DNA of 64,000 nucleotides, from assembly GCA_015295835.1 (NCBI GenBank), contig DVEG01000033.1, positions 1-64,000 on the forward strand, given 5' to 3'. The translations under genes were made by a program, and so were the position numbers. Positions 39,138 through 56,192 of the stretch are shown here, piece after piece. Source of the DNA: Oscillatoriaceae cyanobacterium M7585_C2015_266 (GTDB lineage: Bacteria > Cyanobacteriota > Cyanobacteriia > Cyanobacteriales > Oscillatoriaceae). Within the stretch, counting starts at the first letter, position 1, and each line of letters opens with the position of its first letter. The notes below the pieces were generated by a model, which was not told the DNA's origin, made no database searches, and was given only the letters and a program-made list of their open reading frames with translations.

Positions 39138-41342
39138 ATGGCTATTACTCACTCTTTGTTGAATAAATTATTCTCTAAGTTGATTGTCCCGGAGCAGGCT
39201 GAACTGAGCTGGATTCGGGATCCGCAAAAACAAAGCGCTTTACTGCGAAAAATCATTGATCGCATCCGCAACTCCCTAGAATTGAAAGTGGTCTTGCAAA
39301 CAGCGGTAGATGAAGTCGCTACCCTAATACAGGCAGAGCGCTGCTGTTTTTTGTGGTACTACAGCGACACACGGCGAGTACAAGTAGTCTGTGAAAAAAC
39401 TCACGGAAATCACAAACCGTCTTTAGGCTATTACCCCCTAGAAAACTTTGGAGCAGCGGCGAACGCGCTCGCCCAAGCATCATTGTTCGTTAATTACGGT
39501 TTGGAGGCTTGTCAAGAACGCAAAGGCGTGCTCCACCGCCTACTATCTTGCTTGCAAACAACCAAAACGCCTCAGAAATTACAGCAAACAAATTCCGGGC
39601 ATCAAACGCAGAGCGTACTCGGAGCGCAAGCCAGCCTGCTCGTGCCCGTCAAAAGCCAGTCAGGCAGGATCGGATTTATAGCCTGCCTGTGCGAGCGCCC
39701 TCGAAAGTGGAGCGTCGGCGAAATCGAGTTCCTACAATCTCTCGCCCAACAGCTCGAAATCGCCATCCGGCAAGCCCAACTCTACGAGCAAACTGAAAAA
39801 CAAGCCCAGCAAGAGCGACTGATAAACCAAATTACAACCCAAACCCGTCAGAGCTTAAACTTAGAAACCATCCTCACGGAAGCAATCAGCCAACTAATGC
39901 AAGCCTTAGCAGCCGATCGCTGCCTAGTTCATCTCGTCGAAGAACCCTGCCAAGAGCCGCACAGCCAGTCGCAGCCAGAAGAACTCCCAGAAATACCAGA
40001 CAGAGAAAAAACTTACCGCCGCAAACACCTATTTGAAGTTTGCCAAAACAATTGCCCTCCTTCTATTGAAGACTTTGACACCCACGGACCAATCACGGAA
40101 TGGGTGATAGAGCATCGGGAACTCGTAGTCATTCCCGACATAACCCAAGACCCGCGCATCGGGCCAAACAACCCCGAATATCAGCGGGCGAATATCAAAT
40201 CCTCTCTGGTTGTGCCGGTACAGGCAAACGGGCGACTTTACGCTATTCTATATATAAATCAATGTTCATATATACGCTACTGGTCTAAAAACGATCAAAA
40301 ATTAGCCCAAGCCGTAGCCGATCAGCTGGCAATTTCTATCCACCAAGCCCACCTCTATGCTCAAGCTCGCGCTGCCGCCGCCAAAGCAACCGCGCAAGCG
40401 CAGCAGCTCAGCCAACTGCTTCACGACTTACAGCAAAGTCAGGCACAATTAATCCAAACTGAAAAAATGTCTTCCCTAGGGCAATTGGTGGCAGGCATTG
40501 CCCACGAAATTAATAATCCGGTAAATTTTATCTACGGCAACCTCACTTACGCCCACAACTACATTCAGGAATTACTGGAGCTAGTACGACTCTATCAAAA
40601 ATTTTATCCTAACCCCGCCCCGGAAATAACTGCACATTGCAAAGAAATTGATTTTGAATTTTTATGCGACGATTTGCCAAAATTGCTGAAATCAATGAAA
40701 ATGGGTGCCGAGCGGATTCGCGAAATCGTCCTCAGTTTGCGAAATTTCTCTAGAATCGATCAAGCCGATATGAAGCTGGTTGATTTGCACGAGGGAATTG
40801 AAAATACTCTGTTAATTCTACACAACCGCATTAAAGGAAAGGCGGGAAATCACAGAATTAAAGTCGTGAAAGAATACGGAAACCTGCCTTTAGTTGAGTG
40901 CTATCCGGGGCAGTTGAATCAAGTGTTTATGAATATTATTAGCAATAGTATTGATGCGATCGAAAGCTACAATGAGCAGCGCTCTCCTGAAGAAATTCGC
41001 AACAATCCCAGCCAAATTACCATCCGCACGGAACTAGAGGAGCCAGACTGGGTGATAGTACGAATATCGGATAACGGTCCTGGTATGTCAGAATCAGTCC
41101 GGGCGCGACTGTTCGATCCTTTCTTTACTACAAAACCAGTTGGCAAAGGTACGGGGCTGGGATTGTCTATCAGTTATCAAATAGTCGTTCAAAAGCATGG
41201 CGGAATGATTAGCTGTCACTCGGAACTGGGCAAAGGAACGGAATTTTGTGTAAAAATTCCACTGCGCCAAGCTAAGGGAAAATGTGTCGCTCATCTGCCA
41301 GCAGTTTCAGAAAAATCAACCTCAAATGTTGTTGCAGTTTGA
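39138..41342 (+). CDS. GAF-domain sensor histidine kinase
   Basis: 734 residues, soluble. GAF1 at about 45-215 (LKVVLQTAVDEVATLIQAERCCFLW), GAF2 at about 230-415 (LETILTEAISQLMQALAADRCLVHL ... ADQLAISIHQAHLYAQ), a coiled linker, then the dimerisation/phospho-acceptor helix with histidine in GIAHEINNPVNFIYGNL (about 453) and a HATPase: MNIISNSIDAI (N box), [37 protein letters not shown] (G1, F, G2). GAF1 lacks the bilin cysteine context I would expect for a phytochrome, so the ligand is unknown. No response regulator adjoins it; it converges on the hybrid cyclase gene, 89 bp apart. Confidence 0.93.
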   Translation: MAITHSLLNKLFSKLIVPEQAELSWIRDPQKQSALLRKIIDRIRNSLELKVVLQTAVDEVATLIQAERCCFLWYYSDTRRVQVVCEKTHGNHKPSLGYYPLENFGAAANALAQASLFVNYGLEACQERKGVLHRLLSCLQTTKTPQKLQQTNSGHQTQSVLGAQASLLVPVKSQSGRIGFIACLCERPRKWSVGEIEFLQSLAQQLEIAIRQAQLYEQTEKQAQQERLINQITTQTRQSLNLETILTEAISQLMQALAADRCLVHLVEEPCQEPHSQSQPEELPEIPDREKTYRRKHLFEVCQNNCPPSIEDFDTHGPITEWVIEHRELVVIPDITQDPRIGPNNPEYQRANIKSSLVVPVQANGRLYAILYINQCSYIRYWSKNDQKLAQAVADQLAISIHQAHLYAQARAAAAKATAQAQQLSQLLHDLQQSQAQLIQTEKMSSLGQLVAGIAHEINNPVNFIYGNLTYAHNYIQELLELVRLYQKFYPNPAPEITAHCKEIDFEFLCDDLPKLLKSMKMGAERIREIVLSLRNFSRIDQADMKLVDLHEGIENTLLILHNRIKGKAGNHRIKVVKEYGNLPLVECYPGQLNQVFMNIISNSIDAIESYNEQRSPEEIRNNPSQITIRTELEEPDWVIVRISDNGPGMSESVRARLFDPFFTTKPVGKGTGLGLSISYQIVVQKHGGMISCHSELGKGTEFCVKIPLRQAKGKCVAHLPAVSEKSTSNVVAV

Positions 41343-41431: not shown

Positions 41432-44400
41432 TTATTTTTCAGTAAATCGCCAAATCCCATCCCAGCCATCGGGTAAGCCATGAGTTATTAACTGCTGAAT
41501 GCGATCTAAATAAAGAAGAGCGGCTTTGTCTTGGGGATTGATATATAAAACTTTTTGGAAATAATCTTTGGCTGGCAGTAAGTTTCCTCGCGCGTAATTT
41601 TCTATACCGGCTTCAAAAGCTGATTGAGTTTGCAATTTTAATTTTTTCACTGTTTCGATTTCGCCGTCTAATACTTCATAAATGGCTATGGGTTCGTTTT
41701 TACCTTTGACAATGACGTTATCTAAAAACCTGAAATGATAGCGATCGCGTTGAGTCAGCTTTTCTAAAACTTGTCCTGAAATTAATAAAGATGCTCCATA
41801 GAATTTAGTTAATCCTTCTAAACGAGCAGTTAAATTAATCGTATCAGATAGGGCGTCGATTTGCATTCTGCTGTTTACGCCAATAATTCCTACCATGATA
41901 TTACCAATGTGGATGCCAATTCCTATTTGTATGGGTTGGTAATTTTCTTTTTGTCGGTGTTTATTGTATTCTTGAATTTGATTGAGATTAGCCAGTGCTG
42001 CCGCCACCGCATCATCTGCACCTTTAGGGAAAACTGCCATCAAACCGTCGCCCAAGTATTTGACAATCAAGCCATTGTGCTTTTCAATTTCTGGCGATAC
42101 GCGCCGCAAATAGGCATTTACAAAGTCAAATATTTCGCAAGTAGTCATGCTTTCACTCAGGGTTGTGAAAGAACGAATATCACTAAAAAATATCCCCATC
42201 TCTTTACTGACGTGCTCGCCTAATTTAACATCAATAATGCTCTCTCTACTGAGTAATTCTAAATATTCGTGGGGCACGAACCGTTCATAAGCTTTCGTTA
42301 TTTTAGACAAACTCAGGTGAGTTTTTATCCTCACTAATAGTTCGTCTTTAGCAAAAGGTTTTGTGATATAATCATTAGCTCCATATTCAAAAGCTAAAAC
42401 CAAGTCAGAAACTTGATTTTTGGCAGTTAACATAACGATAGGCAGCTGTTGAGCCGGATGGTTTTCCCTGACTTTCGCACAAACTTCATAGCCGGATAAA
42501 TTAGGCATCATTACGTCTAGCAAAATCAAATCTACTGGCGGATTGCTACTGTTTAATATGGCAAGGGCTTCATTTCCATTCAAAGCTTTGGAAACTATAT
42601 ATTTATTGACAGAAAGGTGATTGCTGAGAACTTGCAGGTTGATTGGTTCGTCATCTACAATCAAAATATGGAAGTTACCATTGGTTTTAGCGCCGTTGTC
42701 GGCAGGCAAAACTGTCTTAGTGTTTATGGTAGCGGGGGATAAAATTTCTAAGTCGGCACGGGTTCTTCGGCTGGTTGTCACGGTAGCAGAAATGGGGGTA
42801 TTTTCCGCGGGAGCGTCGGCAACTGGAAGCGTAAAACTGAAGTGCGAACCCTTACCCACTTCTGACTCAACCCAAATTTTGCCGCCGTGTAATTCGACTA
42901 GCTTTTTCGTAATAGACAGCCCTAACCCTGTACCTCCATATTTGCGATCCGTAGAGCCATCTCCTTGTTGGAAAGATTCAAAAATACGATCAAATTGCTC
43001 AGGCGGGATGCCAATACCAGTATCGGAAACGGTAATGATAAGGGAATTGCCATTTGCTAGTTCTGCTGAAATTTTAACAGTTCCTGATTCGGTAAATTTA
43101 ATCGCATTGCCGATGAGGTTGTAGAGAATTTGCTGTAAACGATCTTCGTCGGCACAAACGGCAGGCAAGTCTGGTGGGATGGCGTTGATTAATTGTAAAT
43201 TTTTATTCTTAATTAGGGGTTTGCTGAGATTCACTACCACTTCTGTTAAAGTGCGGATATCAACAGGTTTGAGTCTTAATTCTAAATTTTCGTATCGCAG
43301 TTTGGCAAAATCTAGGATATCATTGATTAGGTTAGAAAGACGGTGTCCACTTTGGGAAATCATCAACAGGTTTTGTGCCTGCACTTCTGTAATTTTTCCG
43401 GTTGCGCCGTCTAGCATGGATTCGGCAATGCCAATGATGCCATTGAGGGGGGTGCGCAGCTCGTGAGAAGTATTGGCAAGAAATTCGTCTTTGAGTTGAT
43501 CGAGGCGTTGTAGTTCTTTATTTTTACTTTCTAAGGTGTGAGCATATTCTTCTAGTTGCTGGTAGGAAATTATCAGTTGTCTCCAAAGGGCGGAACTGAT
43601 GCTTATGATTGCAGAAATTGCGACGGCAAGCACGGGGGTAAAGACGGGAATCTGCCAGCCGTATAAAAAGGCAATATAGCTGCTGCTGATAATGATTATT
43701 ATGGCTAGAATAATGCCGCTGAGTGATGCTCGTCGCTTTTGGATGTACAGGGAACCGCAAGTGGCACTTGCTACAGATGCGAGCGCAATTATTAACCAAT
43801 TGAGTGGTTTTGGGGATGCGTATAACATCACTCGCCCATCCAGGGCTGCACTGATAATTTGACTGGTGAGGTTGGCGTGAATGACGACGCCGGGGGTTAG
43901 TTTTCTAGCCGCTGTCAGCCCACTGGTGTAAGGAGTTTGATAGTTATCATTTAGACTTGGAGCGATCGCTCCTATAAAAACTAAGCGAGCGCGCATCAAA
44001 TCTGCCGGAATGCGATTTTCTAAAACCTCACTCAGTGAAATATGGAGAAATTTTTTCAGCTCTCCGCGATAATTTAATAATATTTGGTAGCCGCCCGTAT
44101 CCTCCTTATTATATTCCCCTTCATTTCCTGTCAAGGGAATAAATACTGCTTTTCCTAACCCGTAAATTTTTTTCTCTTTATCGATTACTCTGAGTGATAC
44201 TCCTTCTTCTTTTAGATATATCAAAGCCATTTTTACGCCTAGGCTTTGTTGGATAGTGCCGTCAGATTTGCCGAGAATGACAAAACCTCTACGAATTTTG
44301 CCATCCCCATCTAAGATCATGTCGTTGGCAGCCACTTGCTCTAACTTTGCTAATACAGGAGGCGGAGCAATGGAAACTTCTGCTACTTTTTCGATGCCGA

Positions 44401-44788
44401 TTAAATTGGGAGTAGATTTAAAAATATTGACTAACTCTTCATGCCCTGGTTCAACAGGCAAGTCGCGATAAATGTCTATGGCAAGAGCTCTAGGTTGCTG
44501 AGCCATAATATTGCGTATGGCTTGTGCCATGACACGATCAGACATTGGCCAGTGTTTGAGGTTTTTAATGTCCGCTTCGTCGACGGTGACGATAACAATA
44601 CGTTTCTCGATTGGTTCAGGAGGGCGGAGCTGAAAAAAGCGATCGCGCACCGCCCATTCTAACAGGTTAAAAACCCCAATTTGAGAACCAGCTATAACTG
44701 CTCCGGCAATGCTAAAAGCAATTATTAGAGTTCCTTTCCATTGATTAAAGAACTGTTGCGGTTCTTGATTTATTGATTTTTTCCACAT
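41432..44788 (-). CDS. CHASE2 sensor - histidine kinase - receiver - adenylate/guanylate cyclase hybrid
   Basis: 1118 residues. Order: one helix (18-40), extracytoplasmic CHASE2 (about 40-330), three helices (about 335-410), coiled linker, HisKA with [16 protein letters not shown] (about 443), HATPase ([38 protein letters not shown]), receiver ([13 protein letters not shown], phospho-Asp in [15 protein letters not shown], Lys in MLTAKNQ), then class III cyclase (about 875-1045) with both metal aspartates ([11 protein letters not shown] and [12 protein letters not shown]). A TPR-like tail ends it. It would turn a periplasmic signal and phosphorelay into cAMP or cGMP. Last gene of the minus-strand block, 80 bp after the DUF928 gene. 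Confidence 0.93.
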
Positions 44789-44868
44789 CTGCGTTTAGAC
44801 TGTTATAGTTTCCGCAGTTAGGAACTTTTAAAATTTACTAGCACACCTCCTAAAAAATTATAAACCAT

Positions 44869-45714
44869 TTACAAATTTTCGACGAGCGGTTGGGTGGCGA
44901 GCGCTGCCAATCCCACTTGTTCTAATAGCTCTTTCCACTCTTTAACAAAAGCTGTATTATCTAGTTCTTGTTGCATGGCTGTTGCTAAAATCTTTAAGGT
45001 ATCGTACCAAATTCCTGCTTTGGCTAGGGCAGCAGCTGCTTCAATGGGAGAAGAATATTGCTCCTTGCTGCCTATTTTATTTTCAATGCGCCTCACCCAT
45101 CCTGTTACCACATAATTGTCGGGGCGGAGAATCCCGTCTGCTTCTTGCAGGGGAGCGAAAAACCATAAATAGTTTTTCCCTATTTCTAATTCTGGTGCTT
45201 CTTTTGGAAGTGTGACGCTAACAATACCGCCCTTGCCTGACACTTTTAATCTGGTTTGATAGTGTGATTCTCCTTGTTCGTCTTGCAAGCTGAAAAATAT
45301 TTCTTTTGAATTTGTCTGTGGCAAGTATACGAAAAATGTCGGATGTGCTGAAACAGTGCGCCCATATTTTGAAGGGGGAAGTAAAGCGATCGCTTCTGAG
45401 GCTCTGTCACTGCGAACTCCTCCACTAACACTATTATTGGGAGTAGCATCGCCGGGAGTTTCAAATTCAACTTCACCCCGCACGCCTCCTCCGACACTAT
45501 TTTTGGGTGCTGATTCTCCAGGGGCGGCAAATTCTACCTTTCCGCGAACTCCTCCTCCCACGCTTGTTTTAGGTACGACATCTCCGGGAGCATCAAATTG
45601 TACCCTTGCCAATAGGCTATTATTTTTTTCAAAAGGGGCAAGCGCCACTAGCAATCCTGACGCAATTGTTGCTGATAATATTCTTTGCCAAAGAGAGAAT
45701 TTGATTGTATTCAT
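44869..45714 (-). CDS. DUF928 domain protein, exported, with triplicated linker
   Basis: 281 residues. N-terminal hydrophobic segment (LSATIASGLLVALAPF) as signal or anchor. Residues about 38-110 repeat a roughly 27-residue unit three times (FDAPGDVVPKTSVGGGVRGKVE / FAAPGESAPKNSVGGGVRGEVE / FETPGDATPNNSVSGGVRSD). Then comes the DUF928 domain: LLPPSKYGRTVSAHPTFFVYLP, KNYLWFFAPL, VTGWVRRIE, GIWYDTLKILA. Function unknown; the family is known mainly from cyanobacteria and often lies beside CHAT-TPR and CHASE2 genes. 34 bp after the CHAT gene. Confidence 0.88.
   Translation of the reverse strand: MNTIKFSLWQRILSATIASGLLVALAPFEKNNSLLARVQFDAPGDVVPKTSVGGGVRGKVEFAAPGESAPKNSVGGGVRGEVEFETPGDATPNNSVSGGVRSDRASEAIALLPPSKYGRTVSAHPTFFVYLPQTNSKEIFFSLQDEQGESHYQTRLKVSGKGGIVSVTLPKEAPELEIGKNYLWFFAPLQEADGILRPDNYVVTGWVRRIENKIGSKEQYSSPIEAAAALAKAGIWYDTLKILATAMQQELDNTAFVKEWKELLEQVGLAALATQPLVENL
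45498..45617 (-). repeat. Three ~75-81 bp direct repeats inside the DUF928 gene
   Basis: Tandem copies coding the VGGGVRG(K/E)VEF units; the gene segment 'actcctcc(t)cc(g)ac' recurs with the same spacing near 45417, 45480 and 45548 on the plus strand. Protein copies keep GDxxPxxSVxGGVR. Boundaries are approximate. Confidence 0.7.
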
Positions 45715-45748
45715 TTTAACACCTCTCTAATTGAAAGAAAACATTTGA

Positions 45749-48310
45749 CTATAGCCAATTTCCCACTAAAACAAATGATGCCCAGAAATAGGGATGCTTG
45801 TGTAAAGGATTTTGCAATACAGATAGTTGAGCTTGGCGCAAAGCTTCTGCTTTATTTATTTTACTATCTAGCCTTGTTAGCTGTCGATAAAATTCTGCCA
45901 TTAAATTAGCCGTAGCTTCGTCATTTACCGACCACAAACTGGCTAGCGTACTGCGCGCACCTGAGCGCAGAGCAAATCCTGCCAATCCTAGTGTTGCCCG
46001 TTTGTCACCGATTGCTGTTTGACAGGCGCTCATCACCAATAATTCTACTGGCTTACCAATTCCCAATCGACTTTTTTTAAATAATAGATCTAAATCTTTT
46101 ATGCTGATGCGTTCATCCCAAGTAAGAAGAAAAGTTTCTTCTGGATGGGAGCTAAATTGCCCGTGAGTTGCCAAGTGAATGACTGAATAAGCATTTGTTT
46201 CCAAAGCTCTAGCAAAGCGTTGACGAGTAAATTGATGATTTAGTAAAATTTTTGATTTGAATTGGGTACTAATTTCTTTAATTTCTTCCTGTACTGCTGG
46301 CAGGGCTGAAAATCCCTGTCGGGCTTCTGTTAAGGCAGCTGCTAAAACGTTTAATTCTCTCGATTCCAGTTTTTCGGGAAACAATTGCAACCCTGGGCTG
46401 ATGGCAATGCTATATTTTTCGATAAGATATTTTTCCCCGTCATAAAGAGCAGCCATTGGCAAATTTCGTAAGGCTCCGTCGGGGACGAAAACCAAAGTTT
46501 TGATATTGCTACTGGCTAAATCGATTTCAGCTGGTTTGACAAGCCAGTTATAAATCTGTTGGGAGATTTGCAAGCGTTCTTTTCTAGAAAATCCGGGAAA
46601 TAGTGCCGAGTAAAATTTTTCGAGAATAGTTTCGACTTGTTGATTGCTCAGTCGGGTGGTATAATGACGTAGTGGTTGCCCAGGCAGTGATATAATTACT
46701 TCCAGGCGATCGCTTAAAATAATCGGATAAATAACTGCTGCTTGATTATCTATTTCGTCTATATTTGTAGGTTTTACATTTAAACATGCATCACCAAAAA
46801 AATTATCTAACTCAGCCAATTGCAAGGCTTCAATTACTTCTCGCGCTTTTCTTAAATTTGCTTGACTTACTTGCGCACCCGTAAGTAGTGTACTGACAAA
46901 TTCACGATAAATTGGTTCTACACTTTCCTTAAATTCAAACTGAAACTCGTGATTGATTGCTACTAAGTCATTGCGCAAAGCTTGCAGGCTTTTAAAAGCT
47001 CTTTCGTAAGCTGCGATCGCTTTTTCAATCTTCCCCTCTTGTTTAAAAATTTGCCCTAGTTGCCACGAAGCCCGTGCTACAATTTCGTCAGCATCTAATC
47101 CCTCCAGAGTTTGCAGCGCTTCCTCCGTCACTTTTCGAGCATCGTCGATTTGCTGCGTTTGTTTGTAAAGTTTTCCAACTTGCGTAAGAGCCAGCGCTTC
47201 CCCCAGTGGATCTCCTAATTCTCGCGCATCCTGCACAGCAGTCGCTAGTATTTTACCGATTTCTAGCGGCGATATTTTTTCTTCACTACCTGATAGCTTT
47301 ATCAGACTTTCAGCCAAGTTTACTCTTGCATAAATAGAAGCTCTGCTAGCAGGTAACTTAACAATATCTGGGAAAACATGATCAATAATTTGCCGCGCCT
47401 CTGACTGCTGCCCAATAGTAATCAAAAGACTGACTTGATTGAGTTTTGCCTGCACTCTCATTAAATCACTTCCCGCCAGTTTAGCTGCTTCTTGATAATA
47501 CGATAGGGCGACAGTCGGCTGCTGTAAATTTCTAGCAAGATTACCGAGGGTAAAAAGGGTGGCACTCGTATCGACAGGAGAATTCAAGCGCTCGCTAATT
47601 GCCCAACTTTGCTCTAAAATTTTCTTAGCTCTGGTGAAATCGCCAATAGCTTGTAGCCCAATACCCAAACCCCTCAAACTGTCAGCTTTTAGCAAGGTAT
47701 CCGGCTGCCCTTGCAGGTGAATATTTATTTGTTCTAAAATATCCACAGAACGGCGATACTGCCCTAATACTTGCAGGGCAAGCGCTTGATTAAGACGACT
47801 GCCCCATTTTCCGCTTTGAATTCCTGCGCGCTCATAAGCAATTTCTGCTTGTCGCCATGTTTCCAAAGCCGATAAAGTCTCTCCTTTCGCTAATTCTAAA
47901 CTCCCCCGTGTATTCAAAGCTTGTGCTAAAATTGCCGTCCCACGGGGATCTAATTGTTTTAATTTTTGCAAGATTTTAATACTTTCAGCGATCGCTGTTT
48001 GTGCCAGCACCCACTCGCCTAATTGTTGGTAGGCAAGAGATAAAAGATTGAGCGCTTGAGCTTGATTGAGACTTGCCCCTTCCGCTTGGTATGCCGCCGC
48101 CGCTTGTTCTAAAAAATTTACTGCCGCGCGAAACTTTCCTGCTTTGTAGTTTTGTCTTCCTTTTTGTAAAAGATTTGACGCCGCAGGAAATTGTTGAATA
48201 GGAAACTCTGGCTCAGAAAAAGTCAATGAGGAAGCCTTGGCCCAGACTCTGTTTCCCGAACCTGTTACCAAAAGCACAGCTAACAGAAAGTAAACTAGAA
48301 AACCACTCAT
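45749..48310 (-). CDS. Exported CHAT-domain (caspase-like) TPR protein
   Basis: 853 residues. Signal peptide (FLVYFLLAVLLVTGSGNRVWA), TPR superhelix (about 45-465, e.g. RQNYKAGKFRAAVNFLEQAAAAYQAEG), then a CHAT domain (about 560-850) with both catalytic motifs: histidine in VIHLATHGQFSSHP (about 715) and cysteine in LLVMSACQTAIGDK (about 760). The end GNW(L) is typical. CHAT proteases relate to separases and caspases; one, TPR-CHAT, works with Cas7-11 (gRAMP). Here the protein is exported and lies between a TpsA adhesin and DUF928. Targets unknown. Confidence 0.92.
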   Translation of the reverse strand: MSGFLVYFLLAVLLVTGSGNRVWAKASSLTFSEPEFPIQQFPAASNLLQKGRQNYKAGKFRAAVNFLEQAAAAYQAEGASLNQAQALNLLSLAYQQLGEWVLAQTAIAESIKILQKLKQLDPRGTAILAQALNTRGSLELAKGETLSALETWRQAEIAYERAGIQSGKWGSRLNQALALQVLGQYRRSVDILEQINIHLQGQPDTLLKADSLRGLGIGLQAIGDFTRAKKILEQSWAISERLNSPVDTSATLFTLGNLARNLQQPTVALSYYQEAAKLAGSDLMRVQAKLNQVSLLITIGQQSEARQIIDHVFPDIVKLPASRASIYARVNLAESLIKLSGSEEKISPLEIGKILATAVQDARELGDPLGEALALTQVGKLYKQTQQIDDARKVTEEALQTLEGLDADEIVARASWQLGQIFKQEGKIEKAIAAYERAFKSLQALRNDLVAINHEFQFEFKESVEPIYREFVSTLLTGAQVSQANLRKAREVIEALQLAELDNFFGDACLNVKPTNIDEIDNQAAVIYPIILSDRLEVIISLPGQPLRHYTTRLSNQQVETILEKFYSALFPGFSRKERLQISQQIYNWLVKPAEIDLASSNIKTLVFVPDGALRNLPMAALYDGEKYLIEKYSIAISPGLQLFPEKLESRELNVLAAALTEARQGFSALPAVQEEIKEISTQFKSKILLNHQFTRQRFARALETNAYSVIHLATHGQFSSHPEETFLLTWDERISIKDLDLLFKKSRLGIGKPVELLVMSACQTAIGDKRATLGLAGFALRSGARSTLASLWSVNDEATANLMAEFYRQLTRLDSKINKAEALRQAQLSVLQNPLHKHPYFWASFVLVGNWL

Positions 48311-48577
48311 TTTATCCTGGCCATAAATATTTCTTATCCTATCCGCTCGTTTTTCATCCCTCCATAAAATTTTTATTGAGAAAATAATTACAAAAGCTGG
48401 TTTTATGTAATTATACCAAAAGATAGCAAGACTGTAATCAACAAGTCCGTAGATTCTACTATATTTAATCTTTCTTTACCTTTACATCCCCCTGGTGGCA
48501 GCGCCGAAGACTACAATATAACTTCTACTACTGATGCGAGAGAGTATCCGGTTGAATTTTAGACAAATCGCAACAAT

Positions 48578-51500
48578 TTAACGGCAGAGGGGCAAAATTC
48601 TTAGAAGCCCCCGGCGAGACACCAACTCGATTTTTCCTTTGGCATTGATTGAAAAGCCCGTTGCTTCCACAAAAGCGCGTTTGGCTACGTTGTCGTTTTC
48701 TAAAGGTAATTCTACTGTATTTGCACCACCCCCAGCAGCTGCGGATGAGTTGGAAAAATCTTCAAAATCTTGCCAAACAGCAGGCTCACTCATCAAGGTG
48801 ATAATGCTAGTGGGAGATTCCGGTAAGCCGCCGCGCCCGGTTACAGTAAAAGAATTCCCTGCTGCCGCTGCACATCCTATGATTATTTTATCGCTGGGAT
48901 TGGCAACTTCTTCTGGCAATTTTACTAATCCTGAAGTGGGATTTACGGTGGGTTTGCTGATAGTAACATTTCCAGAAATGCCGAATTGAGAACTAGCGGT
49001 AATATCACTTAGTGGGGTTAGGCGATCGCGAAATTCCAGCCCTAAAATCCCCTCTGCACTTAATTGAATATTTCCACCCCGCCCTTCAAATGCATTTGCT
49101 GTCAAGTCATTATTTTCGATAGGAATACCCACAATCAGTGGTGCATTAATCTCAATATTGCCGCCATCTCCGCCCTTTCCTAATATTCCTGCTGTTGCCG
49201 TAATTTGGCTATGGCGGCGCATCAGTAATAGCTTATTCATTTGCATACGAATATTTCCCCCGCGCCCGGAAGCAGTTTCTGCAGTAATCAGACTTTGATT
49301 ATTTAAAATTAAGGAGCCAGTATCAATTTGAATACTGCCACCGGCTCCAATTCCTTGGGGATTCACTTTTGTAGAAATTTGGCTGTTATCTAGAGACAGT
49401 AATTCTCTTGCCCGGATAAAAATTTGCCCTGCATCTCCTTGCCCAGAAGTGCTAGCGATGATTTTTGCACCATTGCTGAGGGAAAGTCTTTCGGTATTGA
49501 GATTGAGGGTGCCGCCATTGCCAATAGCAGTAGACTCGACACTACTAGAAATGGTACTATTATTGAGAGAAATTTCATTGGCATTAATATTTACTATTCC
49601 CGCATTACCTTTGCCTTCTGTGCGGTTGAATAGTTGTGTGCCATTGCTCATGGAAAAGAAGCGTGTATTGATGTTAATATTGCCAGCGTTTCCAACGCCT
49701 CTACCTCTGACGCGACTGAGTAAACTTGAACCCAAACCTGTACTTGAGCGCCCGTCTAAAATTACGCTTTCCCTGGCATTAATTTCAATATTGCCTGCAT
49801 TTCCTTTTCCGTAAGTATTAGTATTTAGTGCTGCCCCATTTGTCACTGAAAGCGAGCCTGTATTAATTTCTATACCGCCCGCATTGCCAACTGATGACGC
49901 TCCAGCTACAATATTAAATATCCGTGAACCTTCCGCTTCCAATTCTCCGTCTAACCTGACTGTTTCTTCCGCATTAATTACTACTCTGCCCGTGTTTCCT
50001 CGGTTGTAAGTTCCCAATATAATTTTTCCCCCCTCTAAGAAATTTATATTTCGGGTATTAATCCTGACATCTCCTGTATTTCCATCACCAAAATTACTCA
50101 AATTTAACCCGCTGCCATTGGTAATATTTATAGTGTCGGCATTCATAAAAATACTCCCTGAATTGCCGCTGCCACGAGTTATATTTGCTATTCTTGCATT
50201 ATTAATATCTACTGTCAATCCTTTCAAGAAAATATTTTGAGCCATGCCGTCTGCAAAAGTTGTTGCAATAATTTCTCCTCCAGATTGGAGCTGTAAATGG
50301 GCGGCATTTATATTTAAATTGCCTGTATTTCCTAGGGCGCGAGTCAGAGAGAATAAACCGCTCCTATATCCATAATTTGGGTTGAAGTTTTTTGGATTGA
50401 AAGAATTTGTTGTTAAAGGGCTGCTTTTTCCTCTATTTTGCACTGAAAGATTGAGTGTGTAAGTATCGCCTGGATCAATGCGATCGCCTTCTAACAATTG
50501 CACGCTATCTGGAATAGTATCAAATTCTCCGACGCCAATTACATAATTTCCCGGTGGTAGCGTCGTAGAGATATAAGAATCTTGAACAACACGACTTCCA
50601 CCTGCACCTTTTTGAATATTAGCATCATCGTTAATAGCGAGCGCTTCTCCATTCGCTCTATTAAACAAAGTTATTTTGGTATCTAAACTTCCCGGAATTG
50701 CCTCGTAACCATCACCACCGTCAATATCAATAATTACCCTACTAGGAGCAGATACTGTAAACGAATAGTAATCAAATTGCTGATTTGCCGTTCCCAAAAT
50801 TGTATTTCCTGCAATAATTTTTTCAGGTGTGCGCTGAATAGAAATGTAGGGAATTCCATCAGCTCCCGAAGCTTCGACATTTGGATTTAAATCTGTACTG
50901 TAGGGCAAGTCATCGAGATTGTAGACAGTTACATCAAGAAAAGGGGAATTGATAAAATCCGTACTGCCTCCCGCAATACTCATCTTGCCAGTAGCATTGA
51001 CAGTTATTTCGCCTGCTTTCCCCCTATTTTCTGTGAGGGTAATAATTTGCCCGCCACTTTCTATATTTAGATTGTTGACATTTATTTCAATAGAGCCACT
51101 ATTGTTGATACTTTTGGTAACAGTAGCAAGAAATCCACGATTTGCTAAGCGGAGATTTCCATGTGGGCGCTCGCTCTGATTTATGGTAATATTACCTGTA
51201 GCGCCGCTGTCATTATTTTCCGAATAACTGAGAATGCCGCTAAAAATTCCATCATCTGAAAAACCAGATATATCGATACTATTAGCATTTAGTTGGATAT
51301 TACCGGCAAAACCATGCGAGCGCGTTATTGTAGAAATTCGAGAACCCGATGTTAGCACTAGAGCATCACTTGTAACAACAATATTACCACCATTACCTGC
51401 TGCTTTTGATTCAACAGTATTGGCGATCGCACTTTTCTCTGCAATAATTATTTTCCCATTCGCATTTATTGAAATATCTCCTGCCGCCGAAACTTGCTGA

Positions 51501-52390
51501 TTGTTAGCCGCAATTCCCCCTAAAACTTGAGAGCCGCCAGAAAGTTCCAAATTATTTGCCAAAATAGAAATACTCCCGCCGCCATTTCCCATAACATCAA
51601 GAATCGCCCCATTCCTGATAAAAATATTACCCCGTATTCCTTCAGGAAAAGAAGGCACCAATCCTGATATTCCTAACTCTCCTCCTGCCACCAATCCCCC
51701 TAACACAACTTGCCCACTGGCAGCCGATAAAATTCCCCCATTTATATTGACATTTCCGCCAAAAATAGCTAGAGTATTATTAGGAGATACCTGCAAGCGA
51801 GACTGCTGCACAGTGATATCAACCGGATTATTTTCATATTTTAAACCAATCGGCAAATTAACCGTTAGTAAAGGGGGAGATTGTGGATTTGTAGCACTGA
51901 AAATACTGCCATCAGCGAAGCGAATACCACTAGCAGTAGAGGCAAAAAATGAGCCTCCCAGATGCAAAGAAGCGCGAGGGCCAAAAATTATTCCACTGGG
52001 ATTAATTAAAAATAAATTAGCAGTGCCGTTAGCGCGGATTAAACCGTCAATATTCGAGACTTTACCACCTGTAACGCGAGAAATAATATTAACAACATCT
52101 GCTGAATTGTTAAAAAAAACTTCGCTGCCATTATTGACAGAGAATTCGCGGAAACTATGAAAGAGATTGCCGCCTACAAGCGTTCCTCCCTGAATCACTG
52201 AAATATTACCATTAGGGGTAACAGTAGTCAGATTCGGCAGAGTAGAATCTGGGATGATTTGAGCAGAGACGCTGCTGAGGAAGCCTATTTTAGAAAGCGC
52301 CACAACTAGACAGACAAAATTTAAAAGTTGAAAGCCTGAATTGCTAAACTGATTAGTGGCTATAAATTTAATAATCGGAGGGGTGTTCAT
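48578..52390 (-). CDS. Two-partner-secretion adhesin (TpsA, filamentous haemagglutinin N-terminal domain)
   Basis: 1270 residues. Signal segment (LLNFVCLVVALSKIGFLSSVSAQ), TPS secretion domain (about 42-200) with GNLFHSFREFSVNNGSEVFF, IDGLIRANGTANLFLINPSGIIFGPRA. Then a right-handed beta-helix of many repeats of the type GNGGxLxLNTERLSLSNGAKI. An inserted PPC-type domain (about 520-650, FDYYSFTVSAPSRVIIDIDGGDG...NYVIGVGEF) interrupts the helix, which is unusual. The TpsB pore gene is not in the window. The product should be exported to the cell surface. First gene of the minus-strand block; a 267-bp gap precedes the CHAT gene. Confidence 0.92.
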   Translation of the reverse strand: MNTPPIIKFIATNQFSNSGFQLLNFVCLVVALSKIGFLSSVSAQIIPDSTLPNLTTVTPNGNISVIQGGTLVGGNLFHSFREFSVNNGSEVFFNNSADVVNIISRVTGGKVSNIDGLIRANGTANLFLINPSGIIFGPRASLHLGGSFFASTASGIRFADGSIFSATNPQSPPLLTVNLPIGLKYENNPVDITVQQSRLQVSPNNTLAIFGGNVNINGGILSAASGQVVLGGLVAGGELGISGLVPSFPEGIRGNIFIRNGAILDVMGNGGGSISILANNLELSGGSQVLGGIAANNQQVSAAGDISINANGKIIIAEKSAIANTVESKAAGNGGNIVVTSDALVLTSGSRISTITRSHGFAGNIQLNANSIDISGFSDDGIFSGILSYSENNDSGATGNITINQSERPHGNLRLANRGFLATVTKSINNSGSIEINVNNLNIESGGQIITLTENRGKAGEITVNATGKMSIAGGSTDFINSPFLDVTVYNLDDLPYSTDLNPNVEASGADGIPYISIQRTPEKIIAGNTILGTANQQFDYYSFTVSAPSRVIIDIDGGDGYEAIPGSLDTKITLFNRANGEALAINDDANIQKGAGGSRVVQDSYISTTLPPGNYVIGVGEFDTIPDSVQLLEGDRIDPGDTYTLNLSVQNRGKSSPLTTNSFNPKNFNPNYGYRSGLFSLTRALGNTGNLNINAAHLQLQSGGEIIATTFADGMAQNIFLKGLTVDINNARIANITRGSGNSGSIFMNADTINITNGSGLNLSNFGDGNTGDVRINTRNINFLEGGKIILGTYNRGNTGRVVINAEETVRLDGELEAEGSRIFNIVAGASSVGNAGGIEINTGSLSVTNGAALNTNTYGKGNAGNIEINARESVILDGRSSTGLGSSLLSRVRGRGVGNAGNININTRFFSMSNGTQLFNRTEGKGNAGIVNINANEISLNNSTISSSVESTAIGNGGTLNLNTERLSLSNGAKIIASTSGQGDAGQIFIRARELLSLDNSQISTKVNPQGIGAGGSIQIDTGSLILNNQSLITAETASGRGGNIRMQMNKLLLMRRHSQITATAGILGKGGDGGNIEINAPLIVGIPIENNDLTANAFEGRGGNIQLSAEGILGLEFRDRLTPLSDITASSQFGISGNVTISKPTVNPTSGLVKLPEEVANPSDKIIIGCAAAAGNSFTVTGRGGLPESPTSIITLMSEPAVWQDFEDFSNSSAAAGGGANTVELPLENDNVAKRAFVEATGFSINAKGKIELVSRRGLLRILPLCR

Positions 52391-52925: not shown

Positions 52926-55900
52926 ATGTTAAAAGTAGATGAGCGTGTCAAAGTAGGCAGCCAGCCAAACCTAGGAGAATGGGCAACCGAAGTCTTAGGG
53001 CTAGAAAAAGTGCGGGTGCAAGCAAGGCTGCGGGGCAATAACCTCTACCTTTTGTGTGAAGGAGAGCCGTGCCCGGATGTGGCTATTGCTGTGCCTAGAT
53101 TCGCCCAAGCATTGGCAACGCAATCTCTAGAAATCCTCAACCCGCCTAATCAACCAAAAATTTATCAGATATTTCTATCTGGGAGAGAAACCGGGCGCAA
53201 TCGTCCAGACTGGACAGTACGTCTTGATCCCAATCACTTAGATAGGTATCTCAAAAAATCAGAGCCGCCTACAGCCGAAAAACTAGAATCATCCTCTACA
53301 CCAGAGCAATCTACCGTCAGCAGCGCTCTTACTGTAGCTCATTCGGCTGAGGGGGATAAGGATGCGCCTATAAAACCAAAAGCGGCAGAGAAAGAAGAGC
53401 TATCCCCGCCCAACGAGGAAAGCCTGGTGATTCAGCGCCAAGCAAGGAGGGGGAATGCGGAAGCGCTCGCTCGCTACTTAAGCGAAATTCTAAGCAACTT
53501 AGGAGTAGCCGTGCGCGTGCGGATAACAGACTTGCAGAATTCCCGCCCCCCTGACAAAGAAATAACAGAATCCTGGAAAAATAACAACAAACGCCTCTGG
53601 GTTCTATGCGAAGCAGCCTACAGCCCCGATCCCTCTTTATTAGCAGAACCGCTAGCGTCTAGACTGCGTAACTTACTAGAAAAGCTCCAGGGAGAATCTC
53701 TGCAGGGGTTTCGAGATGCTGTCATTCTAGGGCAAGTCAGCGGAGAAATAAAACCAGAGTGGATACTGCGCGTCGAGCTCACTCCACCGGAAAAAATGCT
53801 GTCGGCATGGGCGCGCTGGGGCGATGTAGAAGCGCTCGCCCTATTAGTCGAGCGCGCCTTAGCAGAAAACGAGATTGCCGCTCGCGCCATACTTCAAGAA
53901 ACAACATTACACCTATTCCTTAACCGCAAGCCCTCCACTACTGCTACTACTGCAAGAGAAAATACACCTATACACAAAGCCCCCGACAAACATCTCTGTG
54001 TCAGCACTATCGCTACTCTTTTCAATGAACTCGCCCCTCAAGGCATTCAAGCTGTCACAGTTTACGGCATCGACAGCAGCACCGAAACCCGTATCGACGA
54101 ATCACAAGAAACCCCCGTTTGGATTGAATGGCTAAACATCAGCTGCAAAAGAGATCCGGAAATCCAAACTATCCCTACCCAAGAATTAGCAAAACAAGGG
54201 GATCTTAACGCTCTCACTTATTTACTAGATCGCGTCATTAACCCCGATTTGAATATTAAATTAGCTACCGGCGGCATTCGCATCAAACTCCTCCGCAAAG
54301 CCAATGTCTTGCACGTCTTAACCGAAGCTCCTGTCTGCCCAGTGCAAAGTGAAGTGGGGCCACGTATTGTTAAATTCCTGCGCCAATTACAAGTCTCAGA
54401 CATCCAAGGATTGCGAGTTTATGGGCGACGCTATGGCTCTAAACATTTCGCTTGGCGCTATGGCGATGTTATTAATCTACCCCAGCAACTACCGCCGATA
54501 ACTCCGCCAGAATTGACTATCGCAGCGCGGGAAGAAAGAGATAACCTCCCCCAACCAGGGGATTTGGTTATACGTCCAGATTTAAAATCAGAGGATTCCC
54601 CAGACGCACTCACCAAAATATTCGCAGCCGTCGGAACAATTGTGCAAGAAATTCTGCTGCGATCGCAATTATTTGCACCCAACGACTCCCTCACTCACTC
54701 CAGTCGGGAAGCAGCCTTGATTGCCGCCATCTGGGGCACTTTGGGAATCCTACTCACCTTACAAGCAGACTGGCTACTGGGGCAATATCTACGACAAGTG
54801 CAAATGCCTGTAAGCGGCGAGACGGAATTGTCTTTAGACTCTTCCTTGGCTAGCAATAATACCGCTTCACCAGTTACCGTTTCTCTGCCTTTGCCGCAAC
54901 TATCTCTACAGCGTTCAAAAACCGATGACAGCTCTGTGTTTAACCTTTCTGGATTTACTCAATCCGAAGGCAAACGCACAATTACTGCACAATGTTCGGC
55001 TTCAGACAGTGAAGTCGCTCCCGAACGCTGTAGCGTGCAAATTTATAACTACCCCTCCTTTAATAGCCGACAACTCGATGAGCAATTGCAAATCTATCAG
55101 CGTTACCTCCTAGAAGTGGGTACCCCAGATATCTTGATCATAGGCAGTTCCCGCGCACTACGAGGCATCGATCCCCTAGCCCTAGAAAAAGCTCTCGCAG
55201 AACAAGGATATGCGGGATTAAAGGTGTTTAATTTTGGAATAAACGGCGCTACCGCACAAGTCGCCGATATACTTATCCGCGAAATTTTACAGCCAGAGCA
55301 ATTACCTAGAATGATTTTGTGGGCAGATGGAGCACGAGCTTTAAATGGAGGGCGTCGCGATATCACTTATAATGCGATCGCCGCTTCTCCAGGGTATAAA
55401 CAGCTTGCTGCCGGCAAATACCCCATAGTCACTCCCAACCCAGAAAAATCCAATTCGTCTTCTGATTCGCCAGAAAAATCTGCTGCCCCCCCACTGACGG
55501 CTGATAAAATATGGGCGTCTAATTATCAAGAAGTCGCTCTCCTACTCAATCAAAAGCTCGCAGAACTCTCGGCAAGCTACCCATACCGCGAGCGCCTCAA
55601 AACTTTATTGCAGCAGCAGTTTTCCGCAACTTTTGACAAACAGCTTTTGTTTCCTAACCCGGAAACAACTAAAGAAACAACCAATACTCAACCCTCACCC
55701 CCTTCCCCAGACACTCAGAAAGATCCTTCCGTTTCCGTTGATAGTAACGGTTTCCTGCCTTTACCTATTCGCTTCAATCCTTCTGTTTACTATCAGCGAC
55801 ATCCCAGAGTTCCAGGTACTTATGATGCAGACTACGAATCATTTGAATTAGCAGGGCGCCAAACTACAGCTCTGAAAAATTTAATGGCTTTTACCCGAGA

Positions 55901-56192
55901 ACGCGGCATTACAGTCGTTTTTGTCAACTTGCCCCTTACCGATGATTATTTAGATATCGCCCGCAAAAATTTCGAGCAGCAATTCCGTCAGCATATGCAA
56001 AGTCTGGCGCAGGAAGAAGGATTTATCTTTCGCGACTTATCAGAAATTTGGCTCACTGAAAATCAATTCTTTTCTGATCCTAGTCACCTCAACCGCTATG
56101 GTGCCTACGAAATGTCTCTACGCCTCGCTGCTGATCCGATGATTCCTTGGCCTCCTGCTAAAAAAGAAGTTGATAGTCAGGATATAAAGTGA
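52926..56192 (+). CDS. DUF1574 / SGNH-hydrolase-like protein with four N-terminal repeat domains
   Basis: 1088 residues. Residues about 12-105, 165-290, 290-410 and 415-525 are four copies of a roughly 100-residue alpha/beta unit with (A/R)xxGxxxAL at the start and V.xxGRxxG...W..R at the end. One transmembrane helix follows near 595-620 (EAALIAAIWGTLGILLTL). The C-terminal extracytoplasmic part is an SGNH/DUF1574 fold: ILIIGSSRALRGIDP (Ser block), FNFGINGATAQVADI (Gly/Asn block) and FSDPSHLNRYGAYEMS (Asp/His block). It lies 8 bp ahead of an MBOAT gene; such SGNH-MBOAT pairs O-acetylate polysaccharides (compare AlgJ/X with AlgI). Confidence 0.87.
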   Translation: MLKVDERVKVGSQPNLGEWATEVLGLEKVRVQARLRGNNLYLLCEGEPCPDVAIAVPRFAQALATQSLEILNPPNQPKIYQIFLSGRETGRNRPDWTVRLDPNHLDRYLKKSEPPTAEKLESSSTPEQSTVSSALTVAHSAEGDKDAPIKPKAAEKEELSPPNEESLVIQRQARRGNAEALARYLSEILSNLGVAVRVRITDLQNSRPPDKEITESWKNNNKRLWVLCEAAYSPDPSLLAEPLASRLRNLLEKLQGESLQGFRDAVILGQVSGEIKPEWILRVELTPPEKMLSAWARWGDVEALALLVERALAENEIAARAILQETTLHLFLNRKPSTTATTARENTPIHKAPDKHLCVSTIATLFNELAPQGIQAVTVYGIDSSTETRIDESQETPVWIEWLNISCKRDPEIQTIPTQELAKQGDLNALTYLLDRVINPDLNIKLATGGIRIKLLRKANVLHVLTEAPVCPVQSEVGPRIVKFLRQLQVSDIQGLRVYGRRYGSKHFAWRYGDVINLPQQLPPITPPELTIAAREERDNLPQPGDLVIRPDLKSEDSPDALTKIFAAVGTIVQEILLRSQLFAPNDSLTHSSREAALIAAIWGTLGILLTLQADWLLGQYLRQVQMPVSGETELSLDSSLASNNTASPVTVSLPLPQLSLQRSKTDDSSVFNLSGFTQSEGKRTITAQCSASDSEVAPERCSVQIYNYPSFNSRQLDEQLQIYQRYLLEVGTPDILIIGSSRALRGIDPLALEKALAEQGYAGLKVFNFGINGATAQVADILIREILQPEQLPRMILWADGARALNGGRRDITYNAIAASPGYKQLAAGKYPIVTPNPEKSNSSSDSPEKSAAPPLTADKIWASNYQEVALLLNQKLAELSASYPYRERLKTLLQQQFSATFDKQLLFPNPETTKETTNTQPSPPSPDTQKDPSVSVDSNGFLPLPIRFNPSVYYQRHPRVPGTYDADYESFELAGRQTTALKNLMAFTRERGITVVFVNLPLTDDYLDIARKNFEQQFRQHMQSLAQEEGFIFRDLSEIWLTENQFFSDPSHLNRYGAYEMSLRLAADPMIPWPPAKKEVDSQDIK

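Follow-up and report, generated by a model that had tools for sequence, protein, structure and literature searches.

Receptors with a CHASE2 sensor domain have been described next to exported proteins in several bacteria. In Burkholderia, an RR-LysM/FecR-CHASE2 kinase operon affects biofilm formation (PMC5192318), a gene cluster of the Campylobacterota combines a CHASE2 cyclase with a phosphodiesterase, a FecR and a TPR protein in cyclic AMP signalling (PMC9239204), and in S. meliloti the CHASE2 cyclase CyaD1 acts in the same pathway as FecR and TPR proteins (PMC5498481). In Magnetospirillum, the gene for the exported protein MtxA (PDB 4z29), which has an Ig-like and a TPR-like part, is followed by the gene for a CHASE2-adenylate cyclase (PMC4439547). 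The only published mention of DUF928 beside CHASE2 that we found concerns a DUF928-CHASE2-WD40 cluster of Nostoc punctiforme, which was described as occurring only in that species among seven (PMC5587647) and in which CHAT, the two-partner secretion (TPS) exoprotein and the generality of the arrangement were not recognised. A literature search of open-licence papers returned no description of CHAT together with TPS, CHASE2 and DUF928. Here, we describe this combination in the cyanobacterium Oscillatoriaceae M7585_C2015_266 (genome of 3.98 Mb), based on a stretch of DNA of 64,000 nucleotides (positions 1 to 64,000 of contig DVEG01000033.1, labelled C32), hereafter the window.

Four consecutive genes on the minus strand of the window encode a TpsA-like exoprotein, a TPR-CHAT protein, a DUF928 protein and a CHASE2-kinase-receiver-cyclase protein, as judged from the list of open reading frames and Pfam. 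An earlier note on this DNA had reported this gene order, an intact His-Cys dyad in CHAT and a gap of 34 bp between the CHAT and DUF928 genes, all of which were confirmed by the reading frames and Pfam; the TPS-CHAT and DUF928-CHASE2 gaps measure 267 and 80 bp, respectively. Signal-peptide-like N-termini can be read directly from the sequences of TpsA, CHAT and DUF928. The block resembles the CHASE2/FecR clusters in having a CHASE2 sensor with a variable cytoplasmic half and an adjoining exported partner, here DUF928, as well as a TPR protein, which is present in some of them. The cyanobacterial module differs in that DUF928 replaces FecR, the TPR protein bears CHAT and a TpsA/TpsB pair is attached. 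Pfam reports DUF928 only, and no FecR domain, in the exported partner of the window's block. Proteobacteria encode FecR proteins at the corresponding place; on one plasmid each of Paraburkholderia and Rhodobacteraceae, the CHASE2 gene overlaps with the gene for an exported FecR protein. The block is best read as a cyanobacterial version of CHASE2/partner envelope signalling.

The grouping of TpsA, CHAT, DUF928 and CHASE2 as a module is well supported by a neighbourhood survey. A query with the single DUF928 protein returned only six loci, hence genomes were searched and regions were fetched. The survey comprised 80 DUF928 neighbourhoods of about 20 kb each (shorter at contig ends) from order-level relatives in 17 families and 26 genera, together with 20 control regions out of the same genomes; reading frames were called mechanically and labelled by profiles that had been built up starting with the domains of the window itself. 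CHASE2 was adjacent to DUF928 at 52 loci and CHAT at 32. Within four genes of DUF928, CHASE2 was found at 58, CHAT at 47, TPS at 41 and all three at 30 loci, compared to 0, 1 and 1 of the 20 control regions for CHASE2, CHAT and TPS (Fisher p about 1e-9, 6e-6 and 4e-5). At least one partner (CHASE2, CHAT, TPS or TpsB) was detected at 72 loci, and the combination of DUF928, CHAT and CHASE2 in 15 of the 17 families and 20 of the 26 genera. Gene orientation differs among the loci (same strand, convergent or divergent), and the linkage is therefore kept without a fixed operon. The earlier note had suggested a surface system whose state is reported by CHASE2, and had named a genome-neighbourhood survey as a way to disprove it. 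The neighbourhood of DUF928 with CHAT, TPS and CHASE2 turned out to be strongly conserved and partly fused, which lends good support to a surface system with CHASE2 as its reporter.

It could be argued that TPS, CHAT and CHASE2 are merely frequent neighbours, as they are abundant in large cyanobacterial genomes and may cluster in variable regions; the families are multi-copy and their counts grow with genome size. However, the control regions were nearly empty, and the copy-number correlation persists when genome size is taken into account. Among 60 genomes, 55 of which contain DUF928, rho was 0.93 for DUF928 and CHASE2 (0.86 given genome size) and 0.90 for DUF928 and TPS (0.77 given genome size). 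Together with the gene fusions, the co-divergence, the output-matched neighbours and the compact runs on plasmids (see below), this makes an accidental neighbourhood very improbable.

Plasmid annotations provided an independent sight of the gene set. A conjugative plasmid of Nostoc sp. UHCC 0302 carries DUF1822-CHASE2-DUF928-TpsA-ShlB-CHAT-FHA, a plasmid of Pseudanabaena ABRG5-3 ShlB-CHASE2-FHA-CHAT-DUF928 and a plasmid of Gloeothece citriformis CHAT/DUF928-CHASE2. Among 72,556 plasmid records the carriers of DUF928 were cyanobacterial only, and DUF928 had no match in phages. The genome of the window itself contains five DUF928 and six TPS genes. The module is repeated at two further loci, as TPS-CHAT-DUF928-CHASE2/cyclase-DUF928-TPS (L018) and TPS-CHAT-DUF928-CHASE2/kinase (L020), while TPS and CHAT are fused to a single 801-aa protein at L022. 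No gene for the TpsB pore lies inside the four-gene block; the sole TpsB gene among the loci of this genome adjoins a leftover DUF928 gene (L019, contig C3), and elsewhere ShlB (TpsB) stands beside TpsA at L045, L074 and L077 and in the plasmid copies. A transglutaminase-core protein of about 560 aa, as at L095 (10941-12617), is found near DUF928 in eight loci, and a protein that looks similar is encoded beside a DUF928 gene of the window's genome (L019, 7348-9027).

The CHASE2 sensors beside DUF928 carry a cyclase, a histidine kinase (alone or together with a receiver), the combination of cyclase, kinase and receiver (as in the window), AAA_35, a Ser/Thr protein kinase, GGDEF (10 sensors, up to 7 with EAL), a SpoIIE phosphatase (5) or a CHAT-like N-terminal domain (13). 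The cyclic nucleotide that the earlier note had proposed as the output does not hold for the module in general: at least seven types of cytoplasmic half replace one another, and the cyclase is therefore the choice of the window's copy only. The neighbours match the outputs. DUF1822 accompanies 13 of the 15 loci of the class with the N-terminal CHAT-like domain compared to 1 of 43 others, a weakly sigma-70-like gene 10 of the 15 compared to 0 of 43, and separate histidine kinase or receiver genes are found with 7 of 10 kinase outputs compared to 0 of 48 others. Outer parts that stay the same and inner parts that vary are what one would expect of a transmembrane relay. At L074 (5261-7006), L103 (12740-14388) and L130 (3609-5326), DUF1822 and a protein of about 218 aa with weak similarity to sigma-70 accompany CHAT-like-CHASE2 sensors, whose CHAT-like domain keeps the Cys in NSCDGLGLA and has no HxATHG. 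Two back-to-back modules with a kinase-receiver-cyclase and a SpoIIE-type phosphatase output occupy L016 (1-10990), and on plasmid pB of Kovacikia minuta a TIR-CHASE2 gene, another type of output, lies head to head with DUF928 (L129, 4552-8597).

DUF928, CHAT and CHASE2 also diverged together. Their tree distances correlate at 0.46-0.64 overall, and a comparison of modules within the same genome, in which species history cancels, gave correlations of 0.63 for DUF928 and CHASE2, 0.62 for DUF928 and CHAT and 0.60 for CHAT and CHASE2.

With slightly better than even confidence, we propose that the module is a cyanobacterial system for outside-in envelope signalling, in which TpsA, CHAT and DUF928 would act on CHASE2. 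The TpsB pore would place TpsA on the cell surface, while TPR-CHAT would act as a caspase-like periplasmic protease or, when fused, sit on the TpsA C-terminus. DUF928, with its Ig-like and TPR-like parts, may serve as a periplasmic adaptor bound to the CHASE2 receptor, and the Arg-bearing, disordered tail of DUF928 would be a likely cleavage or docking site for CHAT. A change of TpsA or of the state of the envelope would alter the activity of CHAT, which would in turn alter DUF928 (or TpsA). The altered contact between DUF928 and CHASE2 could then switch the cytoplasmic half, which comprises a kinase, a receiver and an adenylate-type cyclase in the window and different enzymes at other loci. 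A more specific and clearly more tentative version is an undescribed form of proteolytic signalling, in which the exported CHAT would cut the Arg tail of DUF928 and thereby gate a CHASE2 receptor with interchangeable output, the protease being fused to the surface protein in some cases; we regard this as possible, though rather doubtful.

Directly ahead of the DUF928 domain, nearly every protein carries the motif F.PP...GAPG.R.GG[GA][TS]R[GS]. Its end, defined by a strict pattern, was found in 79 of 103 DUF928 proteins compared to 6.5 expected from shuffles. The structure model of the window's protein shows a tail that is predicted to be disordered, followed by an Ig-like sandwich and helices, with a predicted local distance difference test score (pLDDT) mostly of 70-89 over residues 111-270. 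Several clan CD proteases cleave after Arg. We favour the Arg tail of DUF928 as the candidate substrate of CHAT, for which DUF928 is at least as good a candidate as TpsA. TpsA proteins likewise show an enrichment of the GGxR motif, to which we gave no weight because these proteins are rich in Gly, Ser and Thr. In the clade of the window, the tail contains 3 to 10 near-identical repeats (about ten in Cylindrospermum NIES-4074), and multi-copy tails occur in 13 of 60 DUF928 genes with CHAT nearby compared to 2 of 43 without (p 0.02). These repeats and the predicted disorder would also fit a peptide signal, for which CHAT would cut the tandem GGxR-G repeats and free peptides of 22-25 aa that are sensed by CHASE2 or a neighbouring cell. 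Yet most DUF928 proteins have a single copy of the motif, and the conservation of the Ig/TPR domain goes well beyond what a protein that only carries peptides would need, which renders a peptide signal improbable.

Several observations weigh against the envelope signalling proposed here. The surveyed DUF928 loci were the top-scoring ones among the listed matches. At 15 of the 80 loci DUF928 and CHASE2 have no CHAT or TPS nearby, and CHAT is therefore not always encoded alongside. The tail motif is present in 31 of 43 DUF928 proteins without CHAT within four genes, so that the tail may equally serve for docking. Within genomes, the distances of TPS fail to follow those of the other three (0.04-0.20); the tight core is therefore CHAT-DUF928-CHASE2, with TpsA being exchanged more freely. 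Signal perception in S. meliloti does not require the FecR protein whose gene lies close to that of a CHASE2 cyclase (PMC5498481), and a profile comparison of DUF928 with the FecR partner from Paraburkholderia revealed no similarity. The best structural match of the DUF928 model, the C-terminal domain of MtxA, extends over both parts (Z 8.7, root-mean-square deviation 3.9, 145 aligned residues; next match 6.5), but this Z score only slightly exceeds the values of 7-8 that are commonly noise and by itself would not be enough. Sequence similarity between MtxA and DUF928 is not detectable, the DUF928 profile gave chance matches only against PDB sequences, CHAT and TPS are not reported for the MtxA locus, and a deletion of MtxA had no phenotype. 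On the other hand, MtxA is an exported protein with Ig-like and TPR-like parts, as DUF928 is predicted to be, and adjoins a CHASE2 cyclase; this common neighbour is independent support because gene context was used neither in the modelling nor in the structure search. A role of DUF928 as partner or adaptor of CHASE2 is moderately supported.

The window's TpsA is predicted to form beta-helix repeats and to be secreted by two-partner secretion (type Vb), as its PF05860 score of 181 bits (cut-off 33.5) and its NPXG family indicate. Complete non-fused TpsA proteins nearly always have two terminal Cys about 80-115 residues apart, usually with TGRGGLP right after the first. In HxuA and other known TpsA proteins, a C-terminal disulfide loop holds the protein fast within the TpsB pore (PMC5422565), and the cyanobacterial Cys pair may by analogy do the same. 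At nine loci, TPS (N-terminal) and CHAT (C-terminal) form one polypeptide, confirmed by Pfam in two; these fusions are without the Cys-pair/TGRGGLP end and have CHAT in its place. In addition, TpsA, TpsB and CHAT genes abut or overlap at several loci. The earlier note had considered it plausible that CHAT processes or guards the adhesin, a possibility in line with the fusions, but within genomes CHAT co-diverges with DUF928 and CHASE2 and not with TPS.

The same observations bear on adhesin release as the main function, in which CHAT would mature or release TpsA near TGR-GGLP in the Cys-pair C-terminus and DUF928 and CHASE2 would set the timing. There is a precedent in LapG, which cleaves the C-terminus of the TPS adhesin CdrA in the periplasm under control of cyclic di-GMP (PMC5422565), and some of the sensors here contain GGDEF or EAL. 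Both systems share a TPS adhesin, an exported cysteine protease and an inner-membrane regulator, but here CHAT is not of the LapG type, and the receptor, CHASE2, is turned to the outside and can be combined with different outputs; the Pfam content of the window block's four proteins includes neither a LapG-type protease nor a LapD-type cyclic di-GMP receptor. The fusions and gene overlaps are in line with adhesin release. However, the 12 kb fetched for L021 (G000:C29:1-12000) encode a TpsA that has the Cys pair and a TGRGGVP end but contain no CHAT, DUF928 or CHASE2, and the Cys-pair C-terminus is therefore not specific to the module. TPS and CHAT show a within-genome co-divergence of only 0.04, and several modules hold CHAT and CHASE2 but no TPS. 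We thus consider adhesin release unlikely, although it deserves serious attention.

The CHAT domain in the window has an intact dyad (HLATHG...SACQT) and, with 215 bits for PF12770, is a CHAT peptidase domain of clan CD. Both catalytic residues are kept in all 61 CHAT proteins (57 fit HxA(T/A)HG and SAC, the other four HLATHA and SAC), and the N-terminus of 57 of the 61 contains a segment of strong hydrophobicity. TPR-CHAT, predicted to be exported, is probably a caspase-like protease of the periplasm. In its AlphaFold model the TPR superhelix is confident, whereas the CHAT domain is poor (pLDDT about 30-45) and its specificity pocket unreadable. The TPR and CHAT architecture and the His/Cys dyad are shared with the cyanobacterial HetF and with Csx29 of the type III-E Craspase. 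Here, in contrast, CHAT is predicted to be exported, is linked to TPS, DUF928 and CHASE2 and has no CRISPR effector; the Csx29 model scored 17.6 bits against the window's CHAT, below its cut-off of 300. CHAT domains act in Craspase and other defence systems, and a TIR-CHASE2 gene lies opposite a DUF928 gene in one case, which could point to regulated cell death or anti-phage defence. The predicted export and the low Csx29 score speak against this, and PADLOC returned generic cyclase and TPR matches and weak BovA matches but no complete defence system among the block proteins. Defence readings were dropped on this basis, and we hold such a role to be highly improbable.

The features of the block are compiled in Table 1. 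Promoter-like sites in the region (38 in total) are modestly above chance (25.6 +/- 5.7 in shuffles). The block is flanked by a gene for a 1088-aa protein with a weakly DltD/DUF1574-like C-terminus (52926-56192, plus strand), divergent to the TpsA gene, and by a GAF-GAF-histidine kinase gene (39138-41342, plus strand), convergent with the CHASE2 gene.

Table 1 Features of the four-gene block, with positions in the window.
Feature	Position	Strand	Evidence
TpsA-like exoprotein gene, 1270 aa	48578..52390	-	Open reading frame; Pfam TPS 181 bits, PPC 33.5 bits; NCBIfam adhes_NPXG
TPS secretion domain	51662..52264	-	Pfam profile
TpsA C-terminal region with two Cys (98 and 2 residues before the end) and TGRGGLP; candidate anchor or processing region	48578..48874	-	Present in non-fused TpsA, missing in TPS-CHAT fusions
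Promoter-like site 5' of the CHAT gene (weak evidence)	48410..48438	-	10/12 matches, TG ahead of second hexamer
Exported TPR-CHAT protein gene, 853 aa	45749..48310	-	Open reading frame; Pfam TPR repeats and CHAT; hydrophobic N-terminal segment; His/Cys dyad
CHAT peptidase domain, His716 (46163-46165), Cys763 (46022-46024)	45758..46567	-	Pfam 215 bits
DUF928 gene, 281 aa, predicted exported	44869..45714	-	Open reading frame; Pfam 166 bits
N-terminal tail of DUF928 with predicted disorder and three copies of a 22-aa repeat that ends in GGVR (Arg57, Arg79, Arg101); candidate site for CHAT	45412..45603	-	
DUF928 domain, predicted Ig-like beta-sandwich and TPR-like helices	44884..45414	-	Pfam; structure model
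CHASE2-HisKA-HATPase-receiver-cyclase gene, 1118 aa	41432..44788	-	Open reading frame; Pfam
CHASE2 sensor domain	43766..44701	-	Pfam 194 bits
Histidine kinase, HisKA and HATPase_c	42818..43492	-	Pfam HisKA 66, HATPase 125 bits
Receiver domain (Response_reg)	42326..42667	-	Pfam 102 bits
Class III nucleotide cyclase domain (Guanylate_cyc)	41690..42205	-	Pfam 72 bits; expected metal-binding Asp, Lys, Asn/Arg present in sequence

The signals of CHASE2 receptors are described as unknown (PMC5192318), and the constant outer set of this module is a testable candidate for the input of cyanobacterial CHASE2 receptors. For DUF928, a family of unknown function, the module would offer a first role, and it may also assign caspase-like proteases a place outside the cytoplasm.

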